From the NCBI GenBank assembly GCA_029861345.1, contig JAOTZM010000004.1, forward strand, positions 1 to 36,247: a stretch of 36,247 nucleotides of DNA. The letters run 5' to 3'. Positions 6,252-15,220 of this stretch are shown here, piece after piece. A program made the position numbers and the translations under genes. The first letter of the stretch is position 1; the number at the start of each line of letters is the position of its first letter. Under the pieces are notes generated by a model. It searched no databases. It was not told the DNA's origin and saw nothing but the letters and a program-made list of their open reading frames with translations. This stretch comes from Candidatus Nitrosopumilus sp. (lineage in GTDB: Archaea; Thermoproteota; Nitrososphaeria; Nitrososphaerales; Nitrosopumilaceae).

Positions 6252-8190
6252 CTTTTAATTCAATCTCCTTTTCTAGTCTTTTTATTCTATCTCTGCATTC
6301 TATTGCTCGCTCAAAGTCTAAATCCTCAGAATATTTTTTCATTTGTGCATCTAAATCAATAATATCAGCTGCAAGATCATGAGATGACTTTAACTTTGAA
6401 TCATCTAATGTTGTTTCTTGTTCTGGAACTGATTTTACGATTGTTCTAGGGATGATGTTGTTCTCTTGATTGTATTGCATTTGTTTTTCTCTACGACGTG
6501 TAGTTTCTTCCATAGCATTTTTTATTGATTTTGTAATTGTATCAGCATACATTATCACAGTTCCATTTTCATTTCTTGCAGCACGACCACATGTTTGAAT
6601 CAGACTGGTAAAGTTTCTCAAGAATCCTTCCTTGTCTGCATCCAGAATTGCTACCAAAGAAACTTCAGGAATATCCAATCCCTCTCGTAGAAGATTAATT
6701 CCAACAAGGACATCAAATTCACCTAAACGTAATTGTCTGATTAATTCAGTTCTTTGTAATCCTTCAATTTCTGAATGCATGTAACGAACCCTAATTTGTT
6801 TTTTTGATAGGTATTCAGCCAAATCTTCTGCCATTCTTTTAGTTAATGTAGTAACTAAAACACGCTCAGCATGTTCTACTCTTTTGTTGATTTCGTTAAT
6901 CAAGTCATCCATTTGGTCCTTGGTAGGCCTGATCTCGACTTTAGGATCAAGTAATCCAGTAGGCCTAACTAGTTGTTCTGCAATTTTTGAGGACGTTTTT
7001 TTCTCATATTCTGAAGGGGTAGCTGAAACAAATATTGCATTTTTGACATATTCCTCAAACTCTTCAAATTGTAATGGACGGTTATCATATGCACTTGGCA
7101 GTCTAAAGCCATATGTTACAAGTTCTCTTTTTCTGGAATGATCACCCTTGTACATCCCATGAAGTTGTGGCAATGTCACATGCGATTCATCGATTACCAA
7201 AAGATAATCATCTCCAAAAAAATCCATCAAACAAAATGCTTTTTCTCCAGCCTTTCGTCCATCAAAATGTCTAGAATAGTTTTCAATTCCAGAACAATAG
7301 CCTAATTCTTCAATCATCTCTAAATCGTATTTTGTTCGCATCTCAAGTCTTTGTTTTTCTAGTTCATTTAGCTCAGGCAGACGTTTTTCTAATTCTTCTT
7401 TGATCGAATTGATTGCTTTTTTTCTAACGTCTTTGGCAATAAGATAGTGTTTTGCTGGAAAAATTTTGATTTGTAAAATTTTTCGTTTTTCCTTTAAAGA
7501 TACGTTATCAAGCAGACTAATTTTTTCTACTTCATCACCAAACAAAGAAATCCTAACTAGATCCTCAGAATATGCAGGAGTGATGCTAATTGTATCTCCC
7601 TTTACTCTAAAGTTTCCAGGTGCAACTTCAGTGTCATTTCTTTCATATCTAGCGTCGATGAATTTTCGGATAATCTCATTTCGTTTAATTTCATCACCTT
7701 TGTTAATTGTAATTGCCAAATCTTCCCAATCTTGAGGATTTCCAAGTGAGTAAATACAAGAAACAGTAGATACAATGATTGTAGGCTCCCCTGATAGAAG
7801 CATTGCAGTTGCCTCTAGCCTTAGTTTTTCAATCTTTTCATTTATCTGAGTATCTTTTTCGATATAGGTATCTGTTTGAGGAAGATAGCTTTCAGGCTGA
7901 TAATAGTCATAGTAGGAAACAAAGTATCCGACATGATTTTTTGGGAAGAACTGCTTTAGTTCTGAATAAAGTTGAGCCGCAAGGGTCTTGTTATGGGATA
8001 TAACCAGAGTATTTTTGCCTGTCCTGACTATAACATTTGCGATAGAAAAGGTCTTGCCGCTTCCTGTAACTCCAAGCAGAGTTTGGACTGTGCCTTTTTT
8101 TACACCTTCAACTAGGGCATTAATTGCCTGAGGTTGATCTCCAGTAGGAGCAAAATCAGATACTAGTTCAAATTGAGAGGTTTGTTCCAA
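6238..8190 (-). CDS. uvrB: excinuclease ABC subunit B
   Basis: Helicase-like damage-verification subunit that recruits UvrC. Walker A is GVTGSGKT, the DNA-clamping beta-hairpin carries YYDYYQPESYLP, the DEAD-like box is VIDESH, and a UVR motif (DLDFERAIECRDRI) at the C-terminus contacts UvrC. I choose the TTG at 8190 (650 aa). The family begins close to FELVSDF, and a TATAAG box lies 30 nt upstream, the spacing for a leaderless mRNA. An in-frame TTG at 8244 would add 18 residues (MFYSTNVSY...) that match nothing in the family. First gene of the uvrBAC operon. Confidence 0.95.
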   Translation of the reverse strand: MEQTSQFELVSDFAPTGDQPQAINALVEGVKKGTVQTLLGVTGSGKTFSIANVIVRTGKNTLVISHNKTLAAQLYSELKQFFPKNHVGYFVSYYDYYQPESYLPQTDTYIEKDTQINEKIEKLRLEATAMLLSGEPTIIVSTVSCIYSLGNPQDWEDLAITINKGDEIKRNEIIRKFIDARYERNDTEVAPGNFRVKGDTISITPAYSEDLVRISLFGDEVEKISLLDNVSLKEKRKILQIKIFPAKHYLIAKDVRKKAINSIKEELEKRLPELNELEKQRLEMRTKYDLEMIEELGYCSGIENYSRHFDGRKAGEKAFCLMDFFGDDYLLVIDESHVTLPQLHGMYKGDHSRKRELVTYGFRLPSAYDNRPLQFEEFEEYVKNAIFVSATPSEYEKKTSSKIAEQLVRPTGLLDPKVEIRPTKDQMDDLINEINKRVEHAERVLVTTLTKRMAEDLAEYLSKKQIRVRYMHSEIEGLQRTELIRQLRLGEFDVLVGINLLREGLDIPEVSLVAILDADKEGFLRNFTSLIQTCGRAARNENGTVIMYADTITKSIKNAMEETTRRREKQMQYNQENNIIPRTIVKSVPEQETTLDDSKLKSSHDLAADIIDLDAQMKKYSEDLDFERAIECRDRIKRLEKEIELKDGRK

Positions 8191-8214
8191 TAGATAAAAT
8201 CTTTGAAAACTGAA

Positions 8215-8220
8215 CTTATA
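8215..8220 (-). promoter_or_regulatory. TATA box of uvrBAC
   Basis: TATAAG on the minus strand lies 30 to 25 nt upstream of the TTG at 8190. That fits TBP/TFB-dependent transcription starting at or next to the start codon, and supports the shorter UvrB. Confidence 0.5.
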
Positions 8221-8453
8221 GCTAACGTTTGTTGAATAAAACAACTCCTAGTGGGTAGAAAATCAATCATGACTTAATACAAAATACAACTAAATGAAAT
8301 TAAGAAGGATCACTATTGCGATGCATTAATCTAATTCCAAAATAGCAGTATCCAAATAATTCACTTAATTATTGTCTATTCTATTCCAAAAATTCACATC
8401 TTATTTCATAATCATATACAAGAATATGAAACCAATTTCCAATTTTGGTAGGA

Positions 8454-8465
8454 TTATATTATAAA
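8454..8465 (+). promoter_or_regulatory. TATA-like box upstream of the truncated MEDS copy
   Basis: TTATATTATAAA lies just outside the left inverted repeat. About 25 nt downstream an ATG (8488) opens an 11-codon frame that ends inside the repeat (TAG 8521-8523), one base before the TTG of the truncated MEDS gene. Transcription from here would cross into whatever coding sequence follows the repeat. Confidence 0.4.
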
Positions 8466-8502
8466 CTACAGATTCTGTTTAACCTATATGGTAAGATATA
8501 TC

Positions 8503-8673
8503 ATCTTTAAGAAAGGGTTATAGTTTGACTCAAAATAACAACACCCTCTCTATTCATGAATGCTCACCATTTGAATTTCTAGATAACATGAAGGAGAATA
8601 AACATATCATAATGTTTGATGATAATACAGAATATTCAAAAAGTATTCAATTTAGTTTCTTAAAAAAAGGATT
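8503..8673 (+). repeat. 171-bp perfect inverted repeat, left arm
   Basis: By direct base-by-base comparison, 8503-8673 equals the reverse complement of 13772-13942 with no mismatch. It contains the last six codons and stop of the 268-aa MEDS-like gene and the first 49 codons of the 200-aa MEDS gene. Sequence diverges immediately at both ends (C versus T before it, C versus A after it). The arms are 5.1 kb apart and face each other. Confidence 0.97.
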
Positions 8674-8710
8674 CAAATCAAAAATTGTTCAGTTAGTTAA
8701 TTTTACATAG
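8525..8710 (+). pseudogene. truncated N-terminal copy of MEDS-domain gene
   Basis: TTG frame of 61 codons. Residues 1-49 are identical to the N-terminus of the intact 200-aa protein at 13318-13920. After the repeat ends, a 12-residue unrelated tail (FKSKIVQLVNFT) runs to a TAG. The fragment keeps HIIMFDD and the first helix of the domain but lacks most of the fold, so the protein is unlikely to work alone. Inversion between the repeat arms would restore a full-length gene here. Confidence 0.85.
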
Positions 8711-8822
8711 TTTAATTTGTTTTTGAGGATGCCGTTATTGTAAATACTCAATATTCTGGAAATTTAATAAAATATTTACTCATACAAACTGAACTTAAAA
8801 CAAGGAAGATATCAAATTAAGG

Positions 8823-9455
8823 TTACCATATAGGTTCATCAACCATTCTTAATCCATCATCAGTCACTTCAAAACCCATAATTTTTAGAGTTTGTTTGGC
8901 AGTGAGAGAATTTTTTTGTAGGATTTTTTGAGCTAAAATTGATCTAGAATTGGCTTGCATTTGTTGACCAATCTTATATTTTCCTTTAGTTGATTCTGGA
9001 ATTACCTTGATTACAGCAACTTCATCTAAGATTAAATTATTTTCTTGCAAAGGCTCGTAATGTCCCTCAGGCTGATATTTTTTCATCAGACAATTAAGTC
9101 CTAAGATTTTTTCTTCATCATGTTCCACTAAAACTGCCTTTCCTTTGATGACTACGCTGATGTAAAGAGTATCTGCTTGTGATGCATCAGTTGGATGTGA
9201 AAAATATGATGGCAAAAATTCTAGTTCCCTATCTACTTCAAAGCCTACTTTCTCATTTCTTGTAATATTGTCAAGCTTTTCTCCTCTTGTGTACGAATGC
9301 ATATAAATTGAATCATTAACAAATGCAAAATTCATAGGAATAATCTGCGGATAACCATTCTCATCAATACTTGCAATTCTTCCAACATGCTCTTCGGAAA
9401 GAAATTCTTTAATTTTTTCATAGGATTTTATTTCCAACCTTCCCAATAATTTCAA
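8823..9455 (-). CDS. pyridoxamine-5'-phosphate-oxidase-like flavin protein
   Basis: FMN (or F420) split-barrel protein of 210 aa. The N-terminal half has the family pattern: a helix ending in FLSEEHVGRIAS, then ENGYPQIIPMNFAFVNDSIYMHS and GEKLDNITRNEKVGFEVD. Next comes a strand with VVIKGKAVLVE and a late VIKVIPESTKGKYK, as in NimA/PNPOx-related proteins. The last about 45 residues (Gln/Lys-rich) are an extension of unknown role. Such proteins reduce small molecules with flavin; the substrate is not evident. It lies inside the segment bounded by the inverted repeat, next to an F420-type oxidoreductase two genes away. Confidence 0.8.
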   Translation of the reverse strand: MKLLGRLEIKSYEKIKEFLSEEHVGRIASIDENGYPQIIPMNFAFVNDSIYMHSYTRGEKLDNITRNEKVGFEVDRELEFLPSYFSHPTDASQADTLYISVVIKGKAVLVEHDEEKILGLNCLMKKYQPEGHYEPLQENNLILDEVAVIKVIPESTKGKYKIGQQMQANSRSILAQKILQKNSLTAKQTLKIMGFEVTDDGLRMVDEPIW

Positions 9456-9598
9456 ATCAAAAGGATTTATTGGAATTATCTAATAAACTAAATGAACACA
9501 AACATTTCTCTAGCAACAAAGTCTTTAAAAAATAAATTATAAATTTTAACTTTAATTGAAACAACAAAATTCTAAATGGAGCATTATGCCATAAAAAA

Positions 9599-9781
9599 AT
9601 GATGCATGACCCATATATTGATGAGTTAAAAAAGGAATTTGATGATTTGTATGATCATCTAAAAAAATTAAAAAAGAAACTTCTAAAGGCAAAATCCATG
9701 GAAACACAATCAAAAATCATCAAGCAAGTTGATTCAATAGCAAAAAAATGGAAAACAATCAAAAACAATCAGTTAAAGTAA
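9599..9781 (+). CDS. small coiled-coil protein
   Basis: 60 codons from the first of two adjacent ATGs (9599, 9602). Residues about 8-55 are strongly helical and Lys-rich with heptad-like Leu/Ile spacing (DELKKEFDDLYDHLKKLKKK), consistent with a short coiled coil. No family recognised. A second frame (ATG 9748 to TAG 9825, 25 aa, Lys-rich) overlaps its end and may be chance. Confidence 0.45.
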   Translation: MMHDPYIDELKKEFDDLYDHLKKLKKKLLKAKSMETQSKIIKQVDSIAKKWKTIKNNQLK

Positions 9782-9833
9782 CAAAATCTAGACTCAAGGA
9801 AAGAAAAGCAAAATCAAAAAAATAGCACTATTC

Positions 9834-9920
9834 TTATTCATCTAGTTCTTTTGCCAATACTTTGATTTCTAAAATTCTGCATGTTAGTTCTGTACATTCT
9901 TTTTTTATCTTAATATTCAC
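9834..9920 (-). CDS. possible mini-protein (28 aa)
   Basis: A GTG frame of 28 codons with two Cys (KKECTELTCRILEIK) and a Lys/Glu-rich helical pattern ending in LAKELDE. A TATATTT-like box sits about 20-25 nt upstream. The composition is protein-like, but the length makes this weak. Confidence 0.25.
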   Translation of the reverse strand: MNIKIKKECTELTCRILEIKVLAKELDE

Positions 9921-10036
9921 GGTGAGTAATTACAAATATAATCAAAAAAGAGAAATTTTCTAAAACTTGATTTTTTTCATCCAAACTTTTCATTAATGAA
10001 AATTGCTAAATTAGAGGATTAATCCTAAACAAATCT

Positions 10037-10450
10037 ATGGATGAGGGAGATCAAGAGCATGAAGAGACAATACAACAAGTATTAGAGATTCTAGAAGGAT
10101 GGGGTTCTGAATCAAAATTCATTTGGTTTAGAGAATTGCATAGAATTACAGATATTGACAAAGGATTACTTCGGAATATTCTCAATGAACTAAAAAAATC
10201 AAAAGAAATCAAAGACATGCATGGGACAAATAATAGAATATTTTTTTGCCTCAAAAAATATTATGTCAAATGCAGAGATGTAGAATTTAGATACAAAGGA
10301 AAAGAGATCATGCTAAGAGATGGAAGTAGAACTAAAGTCATTCAAGGAGCTACAAAATCCACAGAGCGTACAAGAAAAAGATTGGAGAAACAACAAAATA
10401 AGCGCAGAGCAAAGTCATTTACAAAACGCAAACGACCACACAAATCATAA
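10037..10450 (+). CDS. winged-helix-like protein with basic tail
   Basis: 137 aa. Residues 10-75 read as a helix-turn-helix fold: ETIQQVLEILEGWG, FRELHRITDIDKGLLRNIL as the HTH pair, then KSKEIKDMHGTNNRIFFCL as a beta wing. A short middle segment follows, and the last about 35 residues are very basic (RKRLEKQQNKRRAKSF and onward), suited to nucleic-acid binding. I recognise no named family, and DNA versus RNA binding is not decided by the sequence. The stop is one base from the end of the convergent gene at 10452. Confidence 0.65.
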   Translation: MDEGDQEHEETIQQVLEILEGWGSESKFIWFRELHRITDIDKGLLRNILNELKKSKEIKDMHGTNNRIFFCLKKYYVKCRDVEFRYKGKEIMLRDGSRTKVIQGATKSTERTRKRLEKQQNKRRAKSFTKRKRPHKS

Positions 10451-10451
10451 A

Positions 10452-10685
10452 TTAAAAAGAATCTTCGGCTTGCCTTCTCATAAGATTAGATTCAGCATGT
10501 TTGAGTTTTGCCGATTCAGTTACATCTTCAGTCATATCGTATAGTTGATGAAGTTCCATATTAGGAGTCAGTTCATCTTCTTTCTCATCTTCCAGATATC
10601 GTTCTAGATTAGCTAAGATTTTGACATTTTCTTCCAAGATTTCAAGACATTTTTTTACTTCTTCGGGAAAATTACCATTCATCAT
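10452..10685 (-). CDS. hypothetical acidic helical protein (77 aa)
   Basis: Predominantly helical, Glu/Leu-rich: residues 8-33 (EEVKKCLEILEENVKILANL) could form an amphipathic helix, and a second helix covers about 43-65. Two ATGs open the frame. No family recognised. It converges on the winged-helix-like gene with a single base between the two stop codons, so the pair must share terminator space or overlap in their 3' ends. Confidence 0.6.
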   Translation of the reverse strand: MMNGNFPEEVKKCLEILEENVKILANLERYLEDEKEDELTPNMELHQLYDMTEDVTESAKLKHAESNLMRRQAEDSF

Positions 10686-10741
10686 ATTTTGGAGTAACTA
10701 GCAAAGTAAATGATTTTCTATATATTAAAAAACTAGAGGTT

Positions 10742-11848
10742 TTATTGTTTAGCTCTTTCTCTGAGTGCTGGCATTACATGACTAGCAAATTTGTCAATAG
10801 AACCAAAGTAATTCTTTCCCCAGAATCTAATTACAAAGTGATTGACACCAGCATCCATAAATCGCTCAAATGTTGGGATGATATCTTCAGGAGTACCAAC
10901 TGCAGTAGATGAACGAGCAACAGCATCTGGAATTTTTGTTGCAGCTTCTCTCATCTTTATAATCCAACTTTGATCAGACATTGAATATTCTGTAAAGTAT
11001 TTAACAAAATCAAATCCTTCAATTTCTTTTAATCCATGAACTCGTAAGACTTCAGGTTTGAACAAACTTACTTTTACTGCTTCTTTCATTTTTGCCCATG
11101 ATTCTTCTGCATCTTCAGAAAAGTATACATCAATATCCAGGGCCATCTGGAAATTATCTTTTTCTTCTTGTGTTCTGTTGTGTTTGTCCATGGATACTTG
11201 AATTTGTTTTTTGTGATCTTCAAATAACTCAGGAGTGTAACCAATTGGCAACCATCCATCACCAAGTTTACCTGTTAATTCCAAAGTTCTCTTACCACCT
11301 GATGCCATGTAAGTTGGTGGGCGTGGTTTTCTAATTGGGGGTGCTTGTAAACATGCACCCTCTAACTTGTAATATTTTCCATCATAATCTACGGTGTTAT
11401 CAGGAGTGGATTGGTATAATGTATGAATAGTTTCAATTTGTTCTGCCCATTTAGAAACTGGTTTTTCAAATGGTATGCAAAATTCTTTCAAGTTTTGAGC
11501 TTCACCTGCACCAATACCTAAAATAGCCCTACCTTTTGAAACTCTATCAAGAGTAATTGCAGATAGTGCAATGTTGGAGGGATGCCTTCTAATTGCATCA
11601 GTTACACAGGTACCTAATTCCACATTGCTTGTAACTGCGGCAATTGCAGACAACATGACCCAAGGATCCAATACAATTGCATTTTTCCATTGTGGAACAT
11701 TGGTATGATCCATATAGAATATAGAATCATAACCGGTTTTATCAGCAAGAATACAAGCAGTCAAAATTTGATCTTCAGAATATCCGGCTCTTGCAACATT
11801 AAGCCCATTTTGAATACCAAATTTTATTTTTTTATCAGTCAAGTACAT
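10742..11848 (-). CDS. LLM-class F420-dependent oxidoreductase (Mer-like)
   Basis: Luciferase-like TIM-barrel enzyme, 368 aa. Family marks in order: FGIQNGLN at the first strand, AGYDS-type segment TGYDSIFYMDH, LGTCVTDAIRRHPSNIALSA, then DRVSKGRAILGIGAGEA, and KPRPPTYMASGGKRTLELTG with GDGWLPIG. This pattern is that of F420-dependent methylene-tetrahydromethanopterin reductase relatives. These proteins transfer hydride from reduced F420; the real substrate here is unknown. Thaumarchaea make F420 and carry several such paralogues, and no methanogenesis gene lies nearby. Next downstream of the Fe-ADH on the same strand, but a poly-T terminator separates them. Confidence 0.85.
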   Translation of the reverse strand: MYLTDKKIKFGIQNGLNVARAGYSEDQILTACILADKTGYDSIFYMDHTNVPQWKNAIVLDPWVMLSAIAAVTSNVELGTCVTDAIRRHPSNIALSAITLDRVSKGRAILGIGAGEAQNLKEFCIPFEKPVSKWAEQIETIHTLYQSTPDNTVDYDGKYYKLEGACLQAPPIRKPRPPTYMASGGKRTLELTGKLGDGWLPIGYTPELFEDHKKQIQVSMDKHNRTQEEKDNFQMALDIDVYFSEDAEESWAKMKEAVKVSLFKPEVLRVHGLKEIEGFDFVKYFTEYSMSDQSWIIKMREAATKIPDAVARSSTAVGTPEDIIPTFERFMDAGVNHFVIRFWGKNYFGSIDKFASHVMPALRERAKQ

Positions 11849-11913
11849 TTACCTCGGATTATTAGTTTAAAAAGTTTGATAAATTGCCCATTTCGCAGTT
11901 TATTAAGAAAATA

Positions 11914-11930
11914 GAAAAAAAGTAAAAAAA
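11914..11930 (-). terminator. poly-T terminator after the Fe-ADH
   Basis: On the minus strand two T-runs (eight and seven T, broken by AC) begin about 12 nt after the stop of the alcohol dehydrogenase. No hairpin is seen. Typical archaeal T-tract terminator. Confidence 0.55.
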
Positions 11931-11941
11931 ATTTGAATTTA

Positions 11942-12886
11942 TTATAGATTACCTGCTTTGATATCTTCAAGGCATTTTACAACATCATCTTTTGATATTG
12001 GAATTGGGTTTGGATCCAAATGTCCTTTATCAGTCATAACGACATCTGCAGCCTTTGAAACATCAGCTTTGAGTTCTAATTTGTCAAAGCCAAGTTTGTT
12101 CATAGCTTCCTTGAATCTGTCATAGAAGATTGATTTGTTATGCTTGTGTGCAACGGTAGTACAAGAGGACAGGGAATAACCATGTGGTACACCCTCATTT
12201 GAGAATACATAGGACAAAGCATGTCCAAGTGTTGTGGAGCAATTACCAAATCCCATTCCAGATAGCATTGAACCATATGGATAGTTCTCTGGTTTGTCAT
12301 TCATAATTGCATCATAGAGAATCTCAAATGCTTGTTTACATAGAGTCCTAGTCAAGTCATTACCGAGTTTGCTATCATAGCCTTCAGTAGCTTGAGCACA
12401 TGCATCACATACAGAATTGTTGAGAACTTGATCTGGAGTACCATCCATAAAATATGAATCGACTACAGCCATGTCAGCTAAGAATCTGTCTTCGTGTAAC
12501 AATTTCTTTTTTCCATCAAATTTCAGAACACAATAGGTTGTCATTTCAGCTCCAGTTCCAAAGGTTGTTGGAATTAAGATCTTTTCTTTTTTCATCTCCG
12601 GTGCAGCATATTTTACTACATCCATTGAACTTCCACCACCCAATCCAATTAGAACAGATGGGTCTTTGTCTTTGTATTCTGAAATTACAGCATTGACATC
12701 TTCAATTGATGGTTCAGGTTTTACTTTATCATACAGCATGTAATCCGTAATTCCCATTTTTGCTAACCATTTGTCAGAAAGTTTTGGCGGAACGGTTGTA
12801 ACAACTAGGGCATTTTTAGGATACTCTGTTTGACCAAGTGCGTCTTCTCCAAAGTTGATAACTTTTGGAATGCGTACTGTGTACAT
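11942..12886 (-). CDS. short iron-type alcohol dehydrogenase (semialdehyde reductase candidate)
   Basis: Fe-ADH/DHQ-synthase-like NAD(P)-dependent alcohol dehydrogenase of 314 aa, shorter than the usual about 380. The nucleotide-binding GGGSSMD is at residues 83-89, followed by PTTFGTGAEMT. Metal ligands by alignment of motifs are Asp161, Gln165 (usually His), His222 in GHALSY and His235 in PHG; Tyr226 replaces another conserved His. In Nitrosopumilus maritimus a related Fe-ADH was reported as the malonic semialdehyde reductase of the 3-hydroxypropionate/4-hydroxybutyrate cycle. This gene is a good candidate for that role, but orthology needs a sequence comparison. It is monocistronic, with a T-tract downstream. 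Confidence 0.8.
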   Translation of the reverse strand: MYTVRIPKVINFGEDALGQTEYPKNALVVTTVPPKLSDKWLAKMGITDYMLYDKVKPEPSIEDVNAVISEYKDKDPSVLIGLGGGSSMDVVKYAAPEMKKEKILIPTTFGTGAEMTTYCVLKFDGKKKLLHEDRFLADMAVVDSYFMDGTPDQVLNNSVCDACAQATEGYDSKLGNDLTRTLCKQAFEILYDAIMNDKPENYPYGSMLSGMGFGNCSTTLGHALSYVFSNEGVPHGYSLSSCTTVAHKHNKSIFYDRFKEAMNKLGFDKLELKADVSKAADVVMTDKGHLDPNPIPISKDDVVKCLEDIKAGNL

Positions 12887-13179
12887 AAATCAAAGGCATT
12901 ATTGATTATTATTATATCTTCATCTTCAAAACATCGATTAAATCGTGGAGTTTCCAGTAAAATTGATCAAAACCCTGCAATTTTGGTTGTCCAGATCTTT
13001 TCGTAAAAAAACAAAAATTGGTATTCTTTCAAGAGATCTTTTTGAAGATTGTTGTGTTAAATGCAAGTTGTATAATTAAACTCGTTAGCATCCCATAGTC
13101 TTGGTCGAATCTGTGGTTCTAAAAAACCAGTTTCTCCGGAAATCATGAGTTCAAATTTCATGGTTAACGGATATATCTT
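12887..13179. other. intergenic, possible 30-aa ORF
   Basis: Contains the upstream region of the Fe-ADH. The only protein-like frame is TTG 12987 to TAA 13079 (30 aa, basic start, C-terminal CCVKCKLYN with a CCxxC motif), too short to call. Otherwise I see nothing. Confidence 0.35.
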
Positions 13180-13326
13180 ATGGATAGCCTTGTAATTATA
13201 GCAGTCATCATTCTAGCAATTTCAGGGCTCACTAGAGGGCTTTTAACTAATTTTGAATTATCATTCAATCAGAATACCAACAAAATTCAATCAGGCCTAG
13301 AGATGATTTTTTTATTTTTATTTTAA
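13180..13326 (+). CDS. possible single-pass membrane mini-protein (48 aa)
   Basis: ATG frame whose residues 4-17 (LVIIAVIILAISGL) form a hydrophobic helix, followed by a polar Asn/Gln-rich segment and a Phe/Leu tail. The stop overlaps the end of the convergent MEDS gene by 9 nt. The tail is encoded by T-rich DNA that may in fact be the terminator of this stretch. Tentative. Confidence 0.35.
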   Translation: MDSLVIIAVIILAISGLTRGLLTNFELSFNQNTNKIQSGLEMIFLFLF

Positions 13327-13920
13327 ATCAAAACAAATTCCATCGCCTTTAGAAGATGTAAAAATCACGGTGTCATGAGTTTTTATTAATTCTTTAATCC
13401 AATTAAGGCGATTTTCTGGGGGAATCTCTGAAGTATTGTATGTACACATCCAAGAGCCATTAAAACTATGAAAAATTGAATCAGATTTTTTTTCCGATTG
13501 TAAAAAAGTTTCCATTCCTTTTTTTGTACTCATATCAAAATCAATCATTCCAACTATTCTATGAGGCACAGTAGTATCGACAGGGAATATTTTTCTTAGG
13601 AGTGTATCAAAAGGATCTTCTTGAGGATAATGAACAGCGTAGGGGCTCTGATAAACATTGAGAAGATTATCTTTTTTGTATTTATCTACATCAATACCAT
13701 AGTTTTTCATTTCTTTTTCAATTACATCTTTCTCATAGGGCATCACGTAAATTCCGGGTTCTCCTTTTTCTAATCCTTTTTTTAAGAAACTAAATTGAAT
13801 ACTTTTTGAATATTCTGTATTATCATCAAACATTATGATATGTTTATTCTCCTTCATGTTATCTAGAAATTCAAATGGTGAGCATTCATGAATAGAGAGG
13901 GTGTTGTTATTTTGAGTCAA
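13318..13920 (-). CDS. MEDS-domain sensor protein, intact copy
   Basis: 200 aa that read as one MEDS domain (the sensory domain described from DcmR and methanogen/methylotroph regulators). The visible order is HIIMFDDNTEYSKSIQFSFL (27-46), KKGLEKGEPGIYVMPYE (47-63), a YGIDVDKYKKDNLLNVYQ segment, then VGMIDFDMSTKKGME and a closing strand DTVIFTSSKGDG. MEDS domains are proposed to bind small hydrocarbon-like ligands and feed kinases or HTH domains; here no output domain is attached. The TTG start comes one base after the stop of the upstream MEDS-like gene (TAG-T-TTG), so the two are translationally coupled. Its first 49 codons lie in the right arm of the inverted repeat, so a flip would move the rest of the gene to the left promoter. 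Confidence 0.75.
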   Translation of the reverse strand: MTQNNNTLSIHECSPFEFLDNMKENKHIIMFDDNTEYSKSIQFSFLKKGLEKGEPGIYVMPYEKDVIEKEMKNYGIDVDKYKKDNLLNVYQSPYAVHYPQEDPFDTLLRKIFPVDTTVPHRIVGMIDFDMSTKKGMETFLQSEKKSDSIFHSFNGSWMCTYNTSEIPPENRLNWIKELIKTHDTVIFTSSKGDGICFDLK

Positions 13921-13942
13921 ACTATAACCCTTTCTTAAAGAT
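13772..13942 (-). repeat. 171-bp perfect inverted repeat, right arm
   Basis: Reverse complement of 8503-8673 without a mismatch. It spans the end of the 268-aa gene, the 1-nt junction and codons 1-49 of the 200-aa gene. Because this arm lies inside two continuous, coupled genes, it is probably the original and the left arm the copy. Confidence 0.97.
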
Positions 13943-14728
13943 ATTGTGAGGGGAATCTAGCATCACATAATTATGACATTTCAATAATTTTCTTAATGTT
14001 TTACGGTCTGGAATTTTATTTTTATTGTAACCACAAATACAGGAAATGTTTTTCTTTTCAAAGTATTGATCAATTTGTTTTTCAAGTACCAAGAATTCTG
14101 CAGATAAGCCATTTTTGAACCATTCAGTACAATCAATTCCTGCTAATCGCGTAGGTATTTCCAGTTTGTTTTTTTGATGAATTTGAGCAATTATTTGAAA
14201 TTCCTGTGCGGTGGCAGTTTCTTTATTTGAGAAGAGATCAGAATACAAAACATTTTCTACCGCAGGTAATTGTATCTTCTCAGAGGATATCAACCCCTGA
14301 GGAACGTCAGGATGAATAAAAAAATCGTTCATTATTTTATCTCTGAAATTTTTATTGTTCCATAGAAATAGAACATGTTCATGTCCTGAAAAGTTTTTCA
14401 AATATTTGCCAAGTTCTCTTTTTTGAATTTCATCCAGTATTTCTTCAATACCAGCATTAGTATCAAAATCAATCCGATTAAGCATCTCTTTTCTTATTGA
14501 TTCTATAATTATCTTAGAAGCCTCTTCATTAAACAGATCTGAAAATGTATTTTTTGTTAATGTATAATATGGAAATCGGTATTTACAAGGAAGTCTTGTA
14601 ATGGAACGAAGATAAGATATAATATCTCCTTTGATTTTATCACCAAATTTTGAAAAAACTGAGTCACTTGATTCTGCAAAGAGGACGGCAGCATTATTTA
14701 GACAAGGTTCGTATCCTTCATCTCTCAA
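13922..14728 (-). CDS. MEDS-like two-part sensor protein, start probably frameshifted
   Basis: 268 aa from a TTG at 14728. Residues 115-255 resemble a divergent MEDS domain: GHEHVLFLWNN, a long helical middle, RLAGIDCTEWF, ISCICGYNKNKIPDRKTL and KCHNYVMLDSP. The N-terminal 90 residues (with KGDIISYLRSITRLPCKY) I do not recognise. Upstream, the frame stays open back to a TGA formed by ATGAAAAAAA (ATG 14783-14781). If the A7 tract had six A, the gene would start at that ATG and gain the segment KKGGFFTEYQDSDIQSIL, so a one-base insertion or sequencing indel is likely. First gene of a coupled pair with the 200-aa MEDS gene. It is divergent from an RHH regulator gene. Confidence 0.6.
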   Translation of the reverse strand: MRDEGYEPCLNNAAVLFAESSDSVFSKFGDKIKGDIISYLRSITRLPCKYRFPYYTLTKNTFSDLFNEEASKIIIESIRKEMLNRIDFDTNAGIEEILDEIQKRELGKYLKNFSGHEHVLFLWNNKNFRDKIMNDFFIHPDVPQGLISSEKIQLPAVENVLYSDLFSNKETATAQEFQIIAQIHQKNKLEIPTRLAGIDCTEWFKNGLSAEFLVLEKQIDQYFEKKNISCICGYNKNKIPDRKTLRKLLKCHNYVMLDSPHNIFKKGL

Positions 14729-14842
14729 TATTGATTGAATGTCTGAATCTTGGTATTCCGTAAAGAATCCACCTTTTTTTCATTAATATGTTTTATTAAT
14801 AATTTTCAAATAGTTTATTAGAAAACCAAGAAGGCAAAAAAC

Positions 14843-14986
14843 ATGTCAAAAAGAATTACCATCATGTTAGATGTGGATAACTTAAAAAAACTTCACTTGT
14901 TGCAGGCCAAATTAATTAAAGAAACAAACTCTTCTGTAAGCTTTTCAAAAGTACTAAACGAAACAATTTCCAAAGCAATAAAATAA
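14843..14986 (+). CDS. small ribbon-helix-helix DNA-binding protein (47 aa)
   Basis: RHH-type regulator. The N-terminal strand SKRITIMLD is followed by helix 1 (NLKKLHLLQAKLIKETN), a turn and helix 2 (SFSKVLNETISKAI), the exact plan and size of single-domain RHH proteins, which bind operators as dimers. A TTTATTA box sits about 27 nt upstream of the ATG. It is transcribed away from the MEDS pair, with about 60 nt between the two likely start codons, so it could control both. That is inference from position. Confidence 0.75.
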   Translation: MSKRITIMLDVDNLKKLHLLQAKLIKETNSSVSFSKVLNETISKAIK

Positions 14987-15220
14987 AATAGGAAAAACTA
15001 AACCATATTGATTTTATAGGTATCAATCTTTCAGGTCACATAAATCAGCAATCAAGTCAATAATTCATTGTAAGTGGTTCAAAGATATTTGCTGCAACAA
15101 AGGGAAGAATAGGAAGTGGATCTTAACACATTGTCAAACGCATTAGCACTTGCTCCAACATTTACAACATAATACCTTCTAATCTAATATTATTATATTT
15201 TGTATTATTGACCAAGTAGT

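Follow-up and report, generated by a model that had tools for sequence, protein, structure and literature searches.

A perfect 171-bp inverted repeat in a Candidatus Nitrosopumilus genome, probably a one-way reverse copy of a MEDS-operon fragment

A 171-bp fragment from an apparent two-gene operon for a MEDS-domain protein is present twice, as the two arms of a perfect inverted repeat, in a 36,247-nucleotide stretch of contig JAOTZM010000004.1 of Candidatus Nitrosopumilus sp. (the whole stretch analysed, referred to here as the window). The gene content points to an ammonia oxidiser of the Nitrosopumilaceae. We consider it probable that the left arm is a recent, one-way, reverse copy of this operon fragment, that the truncated gene which it contains is probably inert, and that any inversion between the arms is at most rare and incidental. 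A reading made earlier from the sequence alone (the sequence-only reading) had seen in the same arrangement a phase-variable switch of a sensor gene; this was not supported, because only one orientation is found in 18 relatives, neither the arm nor the MEDS insertion is conserved, and no contig of the assembly carries the alternative arrangement.

The claim that the repeat is perfect was borne out: the two arms are identical at 171 of 171 bases, in opposite orientation, and their borders are abrupt, the match stopping at both ends such that the 60 bases outside the arms are 22% identical and the 60 bases inside 23%, as in random sequence. By chance, inverted repeats in the window would be expected to reach no more than about 16 bp, and a chance origin of the 171-bp repeat is excluded. 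Exactly two copies of the arm sequence are present in the entire assembly (1.74 Mb in 192 contigs). Such perfect identity implies that either: the duplication is recent; or that identity between the arms has been maintained. The earlier suggestion of a recent event is thus supported, while the gene conversion offered as its alternative is unlikely, as older homology around the 171 bp is absent; conversion of an old pair of repeats was rejected, since homology ends exactly at the arm borders.

Each arm spans an ORF boundary: it has the final 20-22 nt of the 268-aa ORF (codons plus stop), followed by 149 nt from the start of the MEDS ORF (200 aa). In the complete gene pair, the stop codon of the 268-aa gene abuts the TTG start codon of the MEDS gene, so that the pair looks like a translationally coupled operon. 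The 200-aa protein clearly belongs to the MEDS family (PF14417), scoring 50.3 bits against a curated cut-off of 29.8, with a profile match covering residues 27-182; the 268-aa protein matches the end of the MEDS profile only, at 24.6 bits, which is under the same cut-off. MEDS genes are common in this taxonomic family (67 of 250 genomes), but the gene pair reported here is strongly diverged and lies in a lineage-specific insertion. No relatives turned up when the MEDS and 268-aa proteins were compared with genome contigs in GTDB.

Which of the two arms is the older can be read from gene order. One related genome (G017) carries the pair in the same order at another site (L106:8900-9816, contig C5), with 69% identity for the 268-aa and 62% for the 200-aa protein; its first gene has an in-frame stop, and its second an in-frame loss of about 85 residues (about 10-95 missing). 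Another genome (G031) also has the same gene pair, more diverged. As the right-hand pair is intact, and its order is common to both of these genomes, the left arm is derived and the right arm is its source. The site of the right-hand pair is itself unusual: the spacer between the Fe-ADH and glycerate-kinase-like genes is 50-86 bp in the 16 relatives where both of these genes were detected and 2.3 kb in the window, and the MEDS pair lies beside Fe-ADH in none of the 18 same-genus relatives with the locus.

Apart from short, weak matches, nothing corresponding to the left arm was found in 60 related genomes, nor in the uvrB-PNPOx spacer of any relative. A sharp-edged copy that is absent from the relatives' orthologous site, with the donor intact, is what an ectopic or templated duplication leaves behind. 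The recipient spacer, next to the DNA-repair gene uvrB, ranges from 54 to 2737 bp among relatives, and this variation between species suggests that the site accepts foreign DNA. Neither microhomology nor a clear target duplication is visible at the left-arm junctions, where the spacer is too diverged among relatives to provide an empty site for comparison. Short matches elsewhere in the genome to the spacer left of the arm led to a dispersed dyad (described below), and not to the origin of the arm.

We propose that copying took place once: the 171-bp stretch at the junction of the lineage-specific two-gene MEDS operon may have served as a template where the uvrB-PNPOx spacer had a break or a stalled fork, and the copy would then have been inserted in reverse, 5.1 kb from its donor, in this variable spacer. 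The most likely route would be template switching during replication or break repair. The outcome would be a 61-aa stub frame, probably non-functional, together with an inverted repeat long enough to act as a substrate for homologous recombination, from which inversion could arise as a rare side effect and not as an evolved switch. The arm resembles known templated (template-switch) insertions and short inverted duplications in being a short, exact, nearby copy, reversed and with abrupt borders. It differs from the templated insertions of yeast break-repair, which are typically 5-34 bp long (PMC11724301), against 171 bp here, and also in that microhomology is not visible. No study of templated insertions in these archaea was found in the literature. 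Counting against copying, the TATA-like box and dyad that directly precede the arm would fit well with a promoter swap.

Table 1. Features of the window that bear on the origin of the inverted repeat
Feature	Position	Strand	Description
Variable uvrB-PNPOx spacer	8173..8822		650 bp here; holds the left arm
26-bp dyad TTCATAATC-N8-GATTATGAA (one mismatch)	8405..8430		Member of a family dispersed in the genome; upstream of the left arm
TATA-like TTATATTATAAA	8454..8465	+	38-49 bp upstream of the left arm; sequence match only
Left arm	8503..8673	+	Derived copy; end of 268-aa ORF and first 149 nt of MEDS ORF; without counterpart in relatives
Truncated MEDS frame, 61 aa	8525..8710	+	About 50 MEDS residues, then a foreign tail
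Inter-arm segment, 5.1 kb	8674..13771		PNPOx-like, three small ORFs, luciferase-like, Fe-ADH; ancestral orientation
Lineage-specific insertion with MEDS pair	12950..15170		Between Fe-ADH (egsA-like) and glycerate-kinase-like genes; borders approximate
MEDS-domain protein gene, 200 aa	13318..13920	-	PF14417, E 3e-13
Right arm	13772..13942	-	Source copy, within the intact 268-aa/200-aa MEDS gene pair
268-aa upstream partner gene	13922..14728	-	C-terminal part weakly MEDS-like, E 2.5e-5
Small ORF, 47 aa	14843..14986	+	Divergent from the MEDS pair; ribbon-helix-helix-like by eye

The segment between the arms is in its ancestral orientation. Eighteen genomes of the same genus carry the locus with uvrB linked to the luciferase-like gene. 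All 18 show the order uvrB-PNPOx-luc-egsA(-kinase) in the orientation of the window, with luc and egsA sharing a strand with uvrB as they do here; because all of these relatives match, we take the order in the window to be ancestral. The notion that the window might itself represent the flipped state was ruled out for the same reason. A mobile element ending in the two arms was also ruled out, as conserved core genes lie between them in ancestral order; nor, considering the features of a terminal-inverted-repeat transposon, was there a transposase between the arms or a clear target duplication outside them.

That the repeat could nevertheless work as a switch has to be weighed against these findings. 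In silico inversion of 8674-13771 confirmed the geometry described in the sequence-only reading, with a full 200-aa MEDS frame at 8525 and the 61-aa stub on the right, behind the 268-aa gene, and confirmed also that one full-length copy of the MEDS gene is retained in either orientation. In a phase-variable inversion, RadA-type or integrase-driven recombination between the arms would take the MEDS gene out of the operon that it shares with the 268-aa gene and place it behind the TATA/dyad promoter on the left, and the TATA-like box and dyad that precede the left arm fit with this. Arms of such length can be enough for recombination: an integrase from a Thermococcus plasmid inverts parts of the chromosome by acting on identical segments of as little as 104 bp (PMC8371274), and in Wolbachia, IS elements have been inverted between 23-bp repeats (PMC3004938). 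The likeness to the Thermococcus cases (IntpTN3; TKV2/TKV3) is that opposed identical segments of about 100 bp or more suffice as substrates (PMC8371274); the difference is that here no integrase was found in the window and no inversion was observed. Indeed, checking of window ORFs with Pfam found no recombinase or transposase among them, in agreement with the earlier statement that no recombinase gene is seen in the window.

The comparison of gene order in related genomes, which the sequence-only reading had put forward as a check, gave 0 of 18 relatives with the inter-arm genes flipped. As 60 relatives lack the arm, and the relatives do not carry the MEDS pair at this site, the invertible arrangement is not conserved, and a flip would move an egsA-like lipid gene which is probably essential. 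Invertons such as fimS and the Bacteroides capsule loci invert small segments at short recombinase sites and usually come with a recombinase of their own. They share with this locus inverted repeats flanking DNA beside a promoter; however, the arms here derive from a fragment of coding sequence and enclose 5.1 kb that includes core genes, and no flipping is seen, both orientations being found neither in relatives nor in the assembly, and a linked recombinase not among the window ORFs checked. In the part of the literature available to us, no case of phase variation by inversion in Thaumarchaeota was found. We therefore regard a phase-variable inversion as quite unlikely, and its particular form in which a recombinase-free 5.1-kb inversion by homologous recombination, born of a chance duplication, gives the MEDS sensor gene a different promoter and operon partner in each orientation, as very unlikely.

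The assembly itself bears on this question, and on whether the left arm is real. Two pairs of contig ends in our sample overlap by exactly 127 bp (one of these overlaps being the first 127 bases of the window), which we take as a hallmark of de Bruijn assemblers run at k = 127. Repeats that exceed k, as this one of 171 bp does, collapse in the graph, and the arms must have been placed with the help of read pairs or longer reads. The same short junctions arise in either orientation of the inner segment, so its orientation rests on spanning pairs. The assembler ran a single orientation through both copies of the repeat, and no contigs with the alternative (flipped) junctions are present in the whole 1.74-Mb assembly. 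A well-mixed flipping population would more likely have broken the contig at the repeat, so the unbroken contig argues, short of proof, against frequent flipping.

With a fragmented k = 127 assembly of this kind, the left arm might, though this is rather unlikely, be an artefact of the assembly or of the library, whether from chimeric reads or from a strain mixture misresolved at a repeat longer than k. Consistent with this, the arm is found in no relative and has no visible function, target duplication or microhomology. Against it, a spurious insertion would call for two chimeric borders of independent origin, each supported by reads that span over 127 bp, and would have to leave the old gene order intact to either side. 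Nor does the remaining sampled sequence of this assembly show similar inverted repeats: no further perfect inverted repeat of at least 40 bp was detected in about 211 kb of the same genome (sampled without four masked contigs and about 10 kb of masked sequence), or in about 350 kb of relatives.

The stub might have acquired a role, with a transcript from the left promoter giving a 61-aa partial MEDS peptide, or an RNA identical to the 5' end of the MEDS mRNA which modulates the full gene. The 61-aa open frame does lie behind the TATA-like box and dyad. However, the stub is conserved nowhere, it retains only about 50 of 200 residues and thus a small part of the MEDS domain match, and, because it lies in the sense orientation, its RNA would not pair as antisense with the MEDS mRNA. 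We consider such a role highly improbable, and prefer one-way copying, with an inert stub, as the explanation for the left arm.

Read in this way, the inverted repeat is a small and recent genome scar, and it cautions that a perfect inverted repeat with neat gene geometry does not equal a switch; comparison of gene order can identify the older arm. Were the flip to prove true, it would be an unusual, homology-driven phase switch for this archaeal group.

Several features near the two arms were observed in passing. In G021, a 2.7-kb stretch (L093:10660-13398) occupies the uvrB-PNPOx spacer, which suggests that insertions enter this spacer in more than one species. The edges of the insertion that carries the MEDS pair in the window (12886-12960 and 15150-15200) each keep a conserved ATTATTATTATATCTT-like spacer sequence, with one change, and these copies are possibly a target duplication or a retained promoter. 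The pair in G017 is near frames recognised by eye as integrase-like and IS5-like transposase-like, a context suggesting that the MEDS pair travels with mobile DNA. The kinase gene was not detected beside Fe-ADH in the stretches read of G013 (L086) and G017 (L090, where the stretch ends at a contig end), hence the Fe-ADH boundary may be rearranged in other lineages too.

The dyad upstream of the left arm has 8 exact copies of its TTCATAATC-N8-GATTATGAA pattern in this genome, against 0 for a reversed control pattern, in addition to near-copies. The copies, in the window and on contigs C35, C43, C63, C116, C143, C154 and C173, lie mostly in spacers near genes, and the dyad is rare in the genus (9 of 60 genomes, this one included). 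Its near-constant length of 26 bp suggests a protein-binding site, and it looks like the operator of a regulator. Between the dyad and the arm, a stretch of about 40 bp (8434-8475, TTTCCAATTTTGGTAGGATTATATTATAAACTA) matches parts of contigs C72 and C16 (L132, L134) at 83-88% identity, and is possibly a shared promoter element.
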